DNA from: Chthonobacter albigriseus
GTDB taxonomy: Bacteria > Pseudomonadota > Alphaproteobacteria > Rhizobiales > Pleomorphomonadaceae
NCBI RefSeq assembly: GCF_013839445.1
Contig: NZ_JACDIT010000001.1
Coordinates: 1,405,935-1,469,934 of the forward strand
Length of the DNA: 64,000 nucleotides
Direction of reading: 5' to 3'
The first letter of the stretch is position 1, and each line of letters begins with the position of its first letter. Made by a program: the position numbers and the translations under genes. Positions 30,690 through 53,649 of this stretch are shown here, piece after piece. The notes below the pieces were generated by a model. That model saw nothing but the letters and a program-made list of their open reading frames with translations, was not told the origin of the DNA and ran no database searches.

Positions 30690-30704
30690 TTAACCCCTCG
30701 TTAA
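30690..30704. promoter_or_regulatory. CtrA-type box TTAA-CCCCTCG-TTAA
   Basis: A perfect TTAA-N7-TTAA motif, the established full CtrA recognition form in alphaproteobacteria, 90 bases before the small gene at 30795. A half-site CTTAATC lies at about 30668. No second gene competes for it in the forward direction. Confidence 0.6.
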
Positions 30705-49915: not shown

Positions 49916-50866
49916 TCACTCGATGGTGGCGAGGGAACGCCGCACCGCAAGCCTGGAGGTTGCAGCCGTCAGCACCGCCACAGCGCCGACCAGCACGACG
50001 ATGCCGAGAAACCCGGGCAGCCCGATCGAGAGGCCGCCGAGCAGGGTGTCCATCTGCGCGGCGCCGGGTAGCCCCGAGGACTCCCGGAACAGGATCGCGA
50101 GCGCGATGAAGAGCACCAGCGCCAGACCGCCGCCGATCAGACCGCCGCGGATCCCGAGCAGAAGAAAGTGATGCTGGAACTCGCCCGCGATGAACCGATC
50201 TTCTGCACCGCAGAAATGAAGGACCTCGATGATCTGCCGGTTGCCGGCCATGGCAGCGCGTGTGGCGAACACCACGGACAGCACCATGGCGACGAGCACC
50301 AGCACCAGCACCGCGATGCCGACCGCGACCATCGATCCCGCCATCGCGCGCAACCGGTCCACCCAGGCGGCGTGGTCGTCCAGACTGCCACCTTGGATCT
50401 GGGTGCGAACGGCTTCGCTCAGGCCGGCGACGTCGAACAGAGCCGGATCGTCCACGGTCACCACAACCAGACGCGGCACGGGCAAGGCCGCCAGATCGAC
50501 CCCTGCGCCGAGCCACGGTTCCAGCAAGCGTCGCGTTTCCTCGTCGCTGAGCGCGCGCGCCGACGCAACGCCCGGAAATTCGCCCGCCAGCGCTGCGGCC
50601 TTGCTCAGTTCTGCGGTGATGTCGGTCCCATCGAGCGGCCTGACCTCGATAGTCACTTCCCGGCCGATGTCCGACTGCCAGGCTCGAGCCGCCGCGTCCA
50701 CCATCGTGACGGCGCCAATCGTCAGGCTGGCGAGAAACGTCATGATGGCGATCACGAGGGTGAGTGCCCGTCCGGCGATCGTCTGCGGTGGAACGATCGG
50801 AGTGCGGGTCCGCGATGGCTCGGATCGCGTCGCCGCGTCGTCCTCGGCGGGGGCGGCGGCGCTCAT
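49916..50866 (-). CDS. ftsX: Cell division protein FtsX
   Basis: 316-residue permease-type subunit of FtsEX. A cytosolic N-terminus (about 1-35), helix 1 (about 38-57), a periplasmic loop (about 60-165) and three further helices (about 171-195, 227-250, 275-300) match the FtsX topology. FtsEX recruits and activates amidase regulators at the septum. Its start overlaps the ftsE stop in ATGA. Confidence 0.92.
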   Translation of the reverse strand: MSAAAPAEDDAATRSEPSRTRTPIVPPQTIAGRALTLVIAIMTFLASLTIGAVTMVDAAARAWQSDIGREVTIEVRPLDGTDITAELSKAAALAGEFPGVASARALSDEETRRLLEPWLGAGVDLAALPVPRLVVVTVDDPALFDVAGLSEAVRTQIQGGSLDDHAAWVDRLRAMAGSMVAVGIAVLVLVLVAMVLSVVFATRAAMAGNRQIIEVLHFCGAEDRFIAGEFQHHFLLLGIRGGLIGGGLALVLFIALAILFRESSGLPGAAQMDTLLGGLSIGLPGFLGIVVLVGAVAVLTAATSRLAVRRSLATIE

Positions 50867-51522
50867 TCGTAGATCTCCATCCGTCCGCCGGCGAGCACCA
50901 GCCGCCGCGCTTCGTACTGATTCATCAGCGTAAGGTCGTGCGTGGCGATCACCACGGCGGTGCCGAGCCGGTTGAGCTCCACGAAAAGGCGGAGCAGGCG
51001 CCGCGCGAGGGGGGCATCGACGTTGCCTGTCGGCTCGTCGGCGAGCAGAATCTCCGGCTTGGTGATCAAGGCGCGCGCGATGGCCGCCCGCTGCTTCTCG
51101 CCACCGGAGAGGATGGGCGGAAGCACGTGCATCCGCTCGCCGAGGCCCACCCAGTGCAACAACTCGACCACATCGGTGCGATAGCTGCTCTCGTCGATTC
51201 CCTGCACGCGATACGGCAGCGCCACGTTTTCATAGGTCGTGAGGTGGTCGAGAAGCCGGAAGTCCTGGAACACCATGCCGATGCGTCGGCGGATCTTCGG
51301 CAGTTCGCCCGGCACGATCCGCATCGTGTCCCGCCCGAACATGCTGATCAGCCCGCGCGTCGGCTTCAGCGACATGAACAGCAGGCGGAGCAGCGTCGTC
51401 TTGCCCGCACCGGACGGACCGGTCAGGAACTGGAACGAGCGCGGCTCCACGGCGAAGGTCAGGTCGCTCAGCACTTCCGGCCCCATGCCATACCTGAGGC
51501 CAACATTCTCGAAGCGGATCAC
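50863..51522 (-). CDS. ftsE: Cell division ATP-binding protein FtsE
   Basis: 219 residues from a GTG with GGGGTGA upstream (a GTG at 51537 would add five). ABC ATPase: Walker A GPSGAGKT (35-42), signature LSGGEKQR, Walker B ILLADEPTGN and the switch His in ATHDLTL. Powers FtsX in septal cell-wall hydrolysis. The CtrA-type box lies 71 bases before the start. Confidence 0.95.
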   Translation of the reverse strand: MIRFENVGLRYGMGPEVLSDLTFAVEPRSFQFLTGPSGAGKTTLLRLLFMSLKPTRGLISMFGRDTMRIVPGELPKIRRRIGMVFQDFRLLDHLTTYENVALPYRVQGIDESSYRTDVVELLHWVGLGERMHVLPPILSGGEKQRAAIARALITKPEILLADEPTGNVDAPLARRLLRLFVELNRLGTAVVIATHDLTLMNQYEARRLVLAGGRMEIYE

Positions 51523-51592
51523 GACATCACCCCGCACCCGGCATCCGGCCCGCGGCGGGCGGAGCGGCCGGTCTCATCGTGAAAGCGTAGCG

Positions 51593-51607
51593 TTAACGGA
51601 TCGTTAA
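51593..51607. promoter_or_regulatory. CtrA-type box TTAA-CGGATCG-TTAA between ftsE and the cpdR run
   Basis: A perfect TTAA-N7-TTAA full site in the 213-base divergent gap. In the forward direction a GCTAGTC hexamer region (51623-51629) lies about 16 bases after the second TTAA, the spacing expected for a CtrA-activated -10. It could control ftsEX, the MJ0042-hpt-cpdR run, or both. Confidence 0.65.
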
Positions 51608-51635
51608 TCAATGTCAGCGTCCGCTAGTCCTGCAA

Positions 51636-51657: not shown

Positions 51658-51735
51658 CCGCATGTGATTCGCACCTCCGGCGGACAATGCCTGGACATTG
51701 GGGCAGCGTCACGGGGACGGTACCGATCGGAAGCC

Positions 51736-52668
51736 ATGAAGATCAGCTGTCCGAACTGCGAGGCGACTTATCAGTTGGCGGACCGCGCGATCGGCGCGAC
51801 GGGCCGCAAGGTCCGCTGCACCCGCTGCGGCACGATCTGGCATGCCCTGCCGACCCTGCCGGAGCCCGACGAGGACGATGCCCCCTCCTGGGCTGACGCG
51901 GCACGCAGCCGCGGCTCTGCGGATGACACCGAGGTCGATGCGTGGCGCGCCGCTCTCAGCGACGACGAACAGGCCGCGGCCAGCGAAGATCCCGACGACG
52001 CGGAACCGGACGCGACCACCGGCAGCAATGTGGTCCCCTTCAAGCCGATCCCCGATCCTGACCCGACCGAAGAGGACGTGGCATCCGATGTCACCGCCGC
52101 GGAACCGACGGCGACGGCAGAGGCCGATGTGATCGACCAGGAGCCCGCCGGATTCTCCAAGGAGAAGCGCGCGGCGATCCGGGGGAACAAGAAGGCGCCC
52201 AAGCGCGTGCGGCCGGGCCGCAAGTCCACCCCGATGCCATCCGGCGTCCTGGCTCTCATCATCCTCCTGATCACGGGTGGTGCCGTCGCCGGCGCGATAG
52301 CATGGCGCGACGTGGTGGTCAGCCTCCAGCCCGATTTCGCCGGCCTCTACGAGATGGTCGGCATGAAGGTCAACCTTCGCGGCTTGGAGATCGTCGACGT
52401 CAAGACCTACCGCGAGGTCGACGGCGCCACACCCGTGCTGGTCGTGGAGGGAGAAGTCACCAACATCGATATGAAGATCAGAAGCGTTCCGACGCTTCGT
52501 TTCGGCTTGCGTTCCGCCGCCGGCCGTGAGGTCTATGCTTGGACCATGGCGCCCGGCAAGAACGAATTGGACCCCGGCGAGCGCCTGCCCTTCAAGAGTC
52601 GGCTTCCGGCACCTCCGGATGCTGCGACGGACGTTCAGGTTCGATTTACCGATCGTGCGGGATCCTGA
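51736..52668 (+). CDS. MJ0042-type zinc-ribbon membrane protein
   Basis: 310 residues. An N-terminal zinc ribbon (Cys5, Cys8, Cys28, Cys31 in CPNC and CTRC) is followed by an acidic, low-complexity stretch (about 45-150), a basic segment, one membrane helix (about 175-195, LALIILLITGG) and a C-terminal beta domain of the DUF3426 kind (VDGATPVLVVEGEVTN). The function is unknown. The ATG at 51736 has GGAAG upstream. First gene of a run with hpt (22 bases) and cpdR. Confidence 0.82.
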   Translation: MKISCPNCEATYQLADRAIGATGRKVRCTRCGTIWHALPTLPEPDEDDAPSWADAARSRGSADDTEVDAWRAALSDDEQAAASEDPDDAEPDATTGSNVVPFKPIPDPDPTEEDVASDVTAAEPTATAEADVIDQEPAGFSKEKRAAIRGNKKAPKRVRPGRKSTPMPSGVLALIILLITGGAVAGAIAWRDVVVSLQPDFAGLYEMVGMKVNLRGLEIVDVKTYREVDGATPVLVVEGEVTNIDMKIRSVPTLRFGLRSAAGREVYAWTMAPGKNELDPGERLPFKSRLPAPPDAATDVQVRFTDRAGS

Positions 52669-52690: not shown

Positions 52691-53236
52691 ATGACGACCA
52701 GGACCATCGACGTCCTCTACTCCGAGGAAGCGATCGCGGAGCGTGTCGCCGCGATCGCCGACCGGATCGCCGAGGACAGGCCCGAGCGGCTTCTCGTCGT
52801 CGCCATTCTCAAGGGCAGCTTCATGTTCGCCGCCGACCTCATGCGTGCTCTGCACCGGGTCGGCCTGGAACCGCAGGTGGAGTTCATGATGCTCTCCAGC
52901 TACGGCGAAGCGACGGTTTCGTCAGGGACCGTGCGCATCGTTCGCGACATTGACACCGACGTGAAGGGGCGCGACGTCCTGATAGTCGATGACATCCTGG
53001 AGTCCGGGCGCACGCTCGCCTTCGCCCGCCGCCTCATCGCCGAGCGCGGCGCCTCGCGCGTCAAGGTGGCCGTGCTCCTGGAGAAACCGGGCAAGCGCAA
53101 GGCGGAGATCCAAGCCGATCACGTCGGCTTCGTGTGTCCCGACGAGTTCGTGGTGGGTTACGGAATGGACGCCGCCCATGCATGGCGTCAACTGCCGTTC
53201 GTCGGCGTGATCAAGGACGCCGGCAGCGGCGCGTGA
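52691..53236 (+). CDS. hpt: Hypoxanthine phosphoribosyltransferase
   Basis: 181 residues. The PRPP-binding loop DVLIVDDILESGRT spans 95-108, and VVAILKGSFMFAADL is the N-terminal family motif. It salvages hypoxanthine (and guanine) to IMP/GMP in the cytosol. The ATG has GGAG six bases upstream. The neighbourhood of hpt and cpdR is typical for Rhizobiales. Confidence 0.95.
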   Translation: MTTRTIDVLYSEEAIAERVAAIADRIAEDRPERLLVVAILKGSFMFAADLMRALHRVGLEPQVEFMMLSSYGEATVSSGTVRIVRDIDTDVKGRDVLIVDDILESGRTLAFARRLIAERGASRVKVAVLLEKPGKRKAEIQADHVGFVCPDEFVVGYGMDAAHAWRQLPFVGVIKDAGSGA

Positions 53237-53253: not shown

Positions 53254-53649
53254 ATGGCCAACATCCTGCTCACCGAGGACGACGACAGCGTCCGCACCTT
53301 CGTGAAGCGCGCCCTGGAACTGGATGGTCACGCCGTCACCACAGCCGATGACGGCGGCATGGCGCTCGAGATCCTGCAGGAGCGCAACGGCGACTTCGAT
53401 CTTCTCCTCTCAGACATCACGATGCCGGTGATGGACGGCATCGCGCTGGCGTTGGCGACCGCGCGCGATTGGCCTGATCTGACGATCCTGCTGATGACCG
53501 GCTACGCCGACCAGCGCGAACGCGCCCACGGACTGGATGCCCTGGTCCACGACGTGGTGCCGAAGCCGTTCTCCCTGGCGGACATTCGCCGCGCGGTCGA
53601 CGAGGCGATAGCCGTGCGCCCGCTCGGCGTCCGGAGAATGGCTGGGTGA
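53254..53649 (+). CDS. cpdR: CpdR-type cell-cycle response regulator
   Basis: 131-residue single-domain receiver starting MANILLTEDDDSVRTF with GGAGGAG upstream. Phospho-acceptor Asp54, acidic Asp9-Asp10, Thr82 and Lys104 are present. The motif GIALALATARDWPDLTILLMTGYADQRERAHGLDALVHDVV, here cited in parts (LTILLMTGYADQ, HGLDALVHDVV), is characteristic of CpdR. In Caulobacter unphosphorylated CpdR primes ClpXP and takes part in CtrA degradation. Convergent with the TIGR02302 gene. Confidence 0.92.
   Translation: MANILLTEDDDSVRTFVKRALELDGHAVTTADDGGMALEILQERNGDFDLLLSDITMPVMDGIALALATARDWPDLTILLMTGYADQRERAHGLDALVHDVVPKPFSLADIRRAVDEAIAVRPLGVRRMAG

Follow-up and report, generated by a model that had tools for sequence, protein, structure and literature searches.

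The CtrA-type box and its surroundings

Does the perfect CtrA-type box between the cell-division genes ftsEX and a divergent three-gene run in Chthonobacter albigriseus work as a CtrA operator, and which genes would it serve? The 15-bp box, TTAACGGATCGTTAA, was read directly in the window, by which we mean the whole 64,000-nucleotide stretch of DNA analyzed here, from a genome (G000) of 4.64 Mb in 20 contigs. Sequence and gene layout both agreed with the original prediction, which had placed a perfect box in this divergent gap (Table 1). The CtrA consensus is given as TTAA-N7-TTAAC in the available text of PMC7200025. Because the TTAA half-sites are palindromic, the box has no inherent direction. 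The original prediction had also pointed to a -10-like GCTAGTC at a fitting distance in the forward direction; this motif was present, but the match was weak, with GCGTCCGCT[AG]G recurring at the -10 offset (within one base) in three of the 19 family relatives (G001, G002 and G004) and absent at that offset from the other 16.

On the leftward side, ftsX and ftsE overlapped by 4 bases. The rightward genes, namely the zitP-like gene, hpt and a gene for a single-domain response regulator (SDRR), were separated by intergenic spaces of 22 and 17 bases, and therefore likely form an operon. The label hpt that had been given to the middle gene stands for a purine-salvage enzyme by TIGR01203, not for a histidine phosphotransferase. 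A single GANTC (CcrM-type) site was found in the gap, between the box and the start of the zitP-like gene (51666-51670; 0.64 expected); this number is no more than chance would give, though GcrA/CcrM might act through the site. It stands in TGATTCGC, which is common to G001, and GANTC positions varied across relatives.

Table 1. Features of the divergent ftsEX and zitP-like/hpt/SDRR region (positions in the window).
Feature	Position	Strand	Evidence or remark
CtrA operator (predicted), TTAA-CGGATCG-TTAA	51593..51607	none	spacing enrichment; 19/19 family relatives
-10-like GCTAGTC (putative, weak), rightward promoter	51623..51629	+	15 nt after box
ftsE, cell-division ABC ATPase	50863..51537	-	TIGR02673, 270.4 bits (cut-off 264.85)
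ftsX, permease partner	49916..50866	-	best NCBIfam match TIGR00439, 61.9 bits, below cut-off of 255
zitP-like gene, MJ0042 zinc ribbon	51736..52668	+	PF13717, 56.6 bits (cut-off 30.3)
hpt, hypoxanthine phosphoribosyltransferase	52691..53236	+	TIGR01203, 175.4 bits (cut-off 150)
SDRR, single-domain response regulator, own ortholog group	53254..53649	+	signature MTG[YF]A[DN]QRERA

The genome encoded a CtrA ortholog (G000:C16:258026-258697; NF045991, 428 bits, cut-off 350) that was 85% identical to a Caulobacter CtrA sequence, and a CckA (1305 bits, cut-off 1000). PF10090, which we take to be the ChpT family, was matched in all 40 genomes compared and PF07323, presumably the RcdA family, in 38 of them; CpdR (NF046022) was above its cut-off in 36 of the 40. 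The genome of the window was included in each of these counts.

Conservation of the box

The ftsE gap was fetched for 39 relatives, with up to 700 bases taken where no opposite gene was found. Comparison with related genomes, which had been proposed as a check on the prediction, bore the box out: it was perfect in the ftsE gap of 19/19 relatives of the same family (Pleomorphomonadaceae, Hyphomicrobiales) and of 8/20 genomes from other families of the order, the other 12 gaps having no perfect box. A Markov control (200 runs) gave mean numbers of gaps with a box of 0.01 for the family and 0.21 for the other families. With the window counted in, the family contributed 20 gaps, among which G002 alone, whose gap holds two boxes, showed other spacings (9 and 20, once each). 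The half-sites were constant and the spacer differed among genera, reading CGGATCG in the window and CGTTTCA in G001, which is of the same genus.

We evaluated 53 further loci, 24 plus 29 from the wider class. The 24 include Pleomorphomonas sp. NRK KF1 (L117) and P. oryzae DSM 16300 (L139), which are repeats of G008 and G011, and two of the 29 had less than 1.2 kb of upstream sequence. A perfect box was found upstream of SDRR in 14 loci and was absent there from 14 of the 24 and from 25 of the 29. Seven of the 14 boxes lay in the ftsE gap (two being the repeats), five were SDRR-proximal, one was just inside the ftsE match and one, on a contig without ftsE, was unplaced. For comparison, 12 other spacings pooled over the 53 loci gave 21 matches, 10 in the ftsE gap and four near SDRR. 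The SDRR-proximal boxes, one of them in Aquisalinus luteolus (L140) and the others in L197, L200, L216 and L218, begin 75-109 bp before SDRR, which suggests that CtrA control follows this gene even under a different promoter arrangement.

Which genes the box serves

The start of the FtsE match served as reference point for all distances between box and ftsE. Among the 14 genomes of the Pleomorphomonas genus group, the box started 107-148 bp before the zitP-like gene (mean 120, sd 9), and its distance from ftsE ranged from 84 to 479. Outside this group, 15 boxes lay 45-169 bp from ftsE (sd 32), and 12 boxes ended 73-465 bp from the zinc-ribbon gene (sd 108). As the box is the closer to ftsE in these other genera, ftsE may be its main target there; since they and the Pleomorphomonas group point opposite ways, we claim no single direction. 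A fixed distance to the zitP-like gene was also considered as proof of direction and was rejected, because it holds for the Pleomorphomonas group only and other genera reverse it.

A tie to cell division through ftsEX is possible. One could go further and propose ftsEX as the principal target of the box, through which CtrA would influence when cells divide, its rightward use being incidental or a Pleomorphomonas speciality. The smaller spread of ftsE distances outside Pleomorphomonas speaks for this, as do five of ten Rhizobiales loci without the zinc ribbon (including Nitratireductor, Mesorhizobium and Rhizobium), in which the box lies 50-105 bp from ftsE, and G037, in which an island parts the two sides and ftsE retains a perfect box. 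However, the zitP-like side of G037 retains a perfect box too, in the Pleomorphomonas group it is the distance to the zitP-like gene that stays nearly constant, and in five loci the box directly precedes SDRR. We consider a mainly ftsEX-directed box possible but doubtful, and favor an operator in a divergent promoter that would switch on the zitP-like/hpt/SDRR operon and perhaps also act on ftsE.

The receiver gene is not CpdR

The original prediction had the rightward run ending in a CpdR-type regulator, with the box closing a feedback loop from CtrA to CpdR. Such a loop, in which CtrA would activate cpdR through the box and so limit its own lifetime through ClpXP, has a basis in Caulobacter, for which the available part of PMC4433202 states that CtrA directly activates cpdR and that it controls cpdR/rcdA. 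The CpdR model (NF046022) was also the best NCBIfam match of the window receiver. Nevertheless, this match reached only 96.3 bits against a cut-off of 180, about equal to that of the receiver of CckA itself (97.2 bits), whereas a separate gene, the true CpdR (G000:C16:55214-55573), scored 205.5 bits. In a tree of 26 SDRR, 20 CpdR and 13 CckA-receiver sequences, the three formed separate groups (support 99/96, 97/91 and 100/94), although the position of one SDRR sequence (L039), which sits on a very long branch, is uncertain. In the 20 genomes examined, of 36 with cpdR, no perfect box was found within 700 bp upstream of the true cpdR; two of these upstream regions had one-mismatch boxes. Since the SDRR is distinct from CpdR and the true cpdR lacks a perfect box, a CtrA-CpdR loop does not run through the window box: the gene had been misnamed and the loop drawn from it was abandoned. 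That CtrA activates cpdR through this box is thus very improbable.

The residues D9, D10, D54, T82 and K104 of the SDRR were invariant in 13/13 sequences, so that all phosphoacceptor residues are kept, and by sequence the protein is probably phosphorylatable. The next-best receiver of the genome scored 72.3 bits on the CpdR model. As the SDRR is nearer to the CckA receiver and to CpdR than other receivers are, the CckA/ChpT relay would be its likeliest phosphodonor. The SDRR was found in 30 of 144 genomes of the class (own genome included) at a threshold of E 1e-26. Our literature search returned no description of this protein, nothing relevant by title for "CpdR2" (in the accessible text of PMC11519897 these characters are a citation mark) and no paper joining Pleomorphomonas and CtrA.

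TTAA-N7-TTAA sites across the genome

In the window, the perfect TTAA-N7-TTAA pattern occurred twice, and 100 dinucleotide shuffles gave none. The second of these boxes, TTAACCCCTCGTTAA (30690-30704), was followed, 91 bp on, by an ORF of 81 aa that has no Pfam match. Genome-wide there were 31 such sites among 73 TTAA-N3..20-TTAA pairs (tool count); the 17 spacings besides 7 averaged 2.5, and spacing 7 was in 12.5-fold excess over the mean of the other spacings. This comparison of spacings was used in place of a reversed-pattern control, which makes a poor null, given that AATT may differ from TTAA in frequency. Compared genome-wide with its reversed form, the pattern was commoner in 30 of 40 genomes (all 20 family genomes among them), rarer in nine and equal in one; the reversed form exceeded it in, for example, G021 (41 vs 116), G022 (110 vs 305) and G038 (23 vs 145), and in none of the family. 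With a crude ORF caller, 30 of the 31 sites fell outside ORFs (one of the 30 shares 4 bases with the end of an ORF), but extragenic placement alone is little proof because AT-rich words favor spacers.

Of 38 proteins encoded near these boxes, 28 had a Pfam family match. Among the neighbors were FlgI/FliX, flagellin, FHIPEP (FlhA), a chemoreceptor, MinC, RcdA, a sigma-70 factor and cell-wall enzymes; several such kinds of genes are controlled by CtrA in other organisms. Many other neighbors were atypical as CtrA targets, including porins, a phasin, an aminotransferase, NAPRTase and NUDIX. Individual boxes were seen before minC (L006:1501-1515) and between fliX and flgI (L065:2932-2946). A further perfect box, TTAACTTACCGTTAA (G000:C16:88874-88888; L070:3075), lay 384 bp upstream of the start of the RcdA domain. 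An upstream box accompanied rcdA in four of eight genomes examined (the genome of the window and three of seven relatives), and CtrA may feed back on its own proteolysis through rcdA.

Two short AT words make up the box, and such words are enriched in intergenic DNA; even so, that it is an AT-rich motif present in the promoter spacer by chance is scarcely credible given no box in 100 shuffles vs two observed, and a box in all 20 family gaps (window included) vs a Markov mean of 0.01. By its spacing and conservation, the box is very probably a CtrA operator.

The box as a probable attachment site of mobile elements

In G037, a genome of another genus (g24) in the same order, ftsE and the zitP-like/hpt/SDRR run stand 14.8 kb apart (L228:215-15021). 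TTAACCGCCAATTAA occurs at each side of the intervening element as a direct repeat of exactly 15 bases; on neither flank does the identity extend beyond the repeat. About 40 bp from the ftsE-side copy of the box lies a gene matching the integrase family phrog_1 of PHROG (4.4e-28). Pfam returned nothing for its product (P0001) at E 1e-4, a comparison with the PDB gave no meaningful match, and the name integrase rests on PHROGs and on motifs judged by eye. The cargo comprised genes for SIR2-like, SMC/AAA, ResIII, N6/N4 methylase, resolvase and nucleoside deoxyribosyltransferase proteins.

Relatives of this integrase were found at E 1e-15 in 19 of 397 genomes of the order. In three of these, all of genus g24 (G037, G430 and G415), the integrases were pairwise 53-65% identical and end about 40 bp from the box beside ftsE, which is perfect in G037 and G430 (L230/L249) and has one mismatch in G415. 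The G415 element (L250:249-14371, about 14.1 kb) is phage-like, with terminase, portal, head, tape-measure and integrase genes, and its ends, TTAACCGCCAATTAT and GTAACCGCCAATTAA, share a 13-bp core, both flanking boxes being one base short. The same box occurs in Rhizobiales bacterium Ga0077556 (L118:236), whose flank aligns to the arm of the G037 element over 94 columns (score 114 vs a shuffled maximum of 27). The zitP-side arm of G415 gave no alignment beyond shuffles with the arms of G037 or L118. No empty site was seen in g24, and the other end of the G430 element lies beyond its contig. An integrase scan of viral contigs returned no relative. The attachment 14-mer matched at least 120 stretches in viral contigs; we regard these matches as chance because none of the 120 listed encodes an integrase relative, ftsE, the zitP-like gene, hpt or SDRR (E 1e-6). 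Phage records held three distant integrases, at most 28.9% identical.

We infer that these integrases mediate mobile-element integration in g24, and the sequences support well that the elements attach to the chromosome at the predicted CtrA operator. It is also rather probable that elements seated at the operator split the divergent promoter, and that their carriage would either rewire the cell-cycle switch or be forced to preserve it. If this holds, an element of the G037 type leaves a full box on both sides, both halves can keep CtrA control, and mobile DNA and cell-cycle control meet at one operator, which would be unusual. We give hardly any weight to the converse, that conservation of the box is owed mainly to its use in integration and not to a role as operator: three integrases do adjoin it in g24, but the 17 integrase-relative loci of the other 16 genomes had no perfect box (one of them, L237, stops with the integrase match), and the spacer, which is part of the attachment core, varies among genera while the half-sites do not.

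The zitP-like gene

The ribbon of the zitP-like gene was the sole PF13717 match in the genome and aligned to PDB chain 2nb9, which we take to be the ZitP zinc ribbon. It contains C5, C8, C28 and C31 (CXXC-X19-CXXC, N-terminal) together with R24, R27 and W35; all of these except R27 were invariant in 15/15 aligned ZitP-like sequences. The protein has one hydrophobic stretch near residues 171-189. A C-terminal DUF3426 scored 20.5 bits in the window protein, below the cut-off of 27.7, and was matched in 9/15 aligned members at E 0.01. A PF10691 gene, presumably of the PopZ family, was present in 37 of 40 genomes, including that of the window. Changes at C5/C8/C28/C31, R24, R27 and W35 disturb the PopZ binding or polar placement of ZitP, as described in the portion of PMC5182065 available, and the ribbon residues of the window protein suggest that it, too, would bind PopZ.

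By pattern search, the zinc-ribbon motif was absent in ten Rhizobiales loci (L126-L129, L132, L133 and L135-L138), including Rhizobium, Mesorhizobium and Nitratireductor, that keep ftsE, hpt and SDRR. As no ribbon motif stands between ftsE and hpt/SDRR in these ten, the ribbon seems to have been lost there. They fit the statement in the available text of PMC5182065 that Rhizobiales encode no ZitP orthologs, whereas Pleomorphomonadaceae (Hyphomicrobiales), which encode a ZitP-like protein, run against it.

Proposed regulation and comparison with known systems

Taken together, we consider the box likely to be a true CtrA operator, set in the divergent promoter of ftsEX and zitP-like/hpt/SDRR. 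Phosphorylated CtrA would bind it at about -35 of the rightward promoter, switching on the operon and perhaps also acting on ftsE. The SDRR, charged by CckA/ChpT, might in turn feed back on CtrA. Under this proposal CtrA would time a polarity factor together with an undescribed receiver protein, and not CpdR, which corrects a tempting misreading of the locus as a CpdR loop. In Hyphomicrobiales, which are said to have no ZitP, CtrA would then probably control both an SDRR and a ZitP-like polarity protein, and the locus offers a concrete candidate for a route from CtrA to the polarity and division of the cell in this order.

The use of a conserved host site by mobile DNA resembles that of phages at dif-like sites (Jorvik), as described in the accessible text of PMC10589892; unlike at dif, the site here is a predicted CtrA operator, and the integrase is encoded by the element itself. 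The available portions of PMC10589892 and PMC9437464 do not report attachment at a CtrA box, which is not proof of absence.

The zitP-like protein is like Caulobacter ZitP, as far as the published excerpts describe it, in its ribbon residues, its one membrane stretch and its similar length (311 and 310 residues). The two differ in what precedes the gene: Caulobacter zitP is promoted by GcrA/CcrM according to the available part of PMC5182063, whereas a CtrA-type box precedes the zitP-like gene of the window.

As in the control of cpdR/rcdA in Caulobacter crescentus, a CtrA box stands before CtrA-feedback genes, and here rcdA has such a box; unlike in C. crescentus, the box of the window precedes a cpdR paralog and the true cpdR is without a perfect box. 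According to the text available of PMC7200025, neither cpdR nor rcdA is under CtrA regulation in Hyphomonas neptunium. The nearest working precedent for the SDRR, by analogy, is Osp of Rhodobacter sphaeroides, presented in the accessible part of PMC9430884 as a CtrA-activated single-domain receiver that forms a negative loop by inhibiting CckA. Like Osp, the SDRR is a single-domain receiver with a CtrA-type site before its gene or operon; unlike Osp, which by the description available lacks the Mg-binding acids and the lysine, the SDRR keeps these residues.
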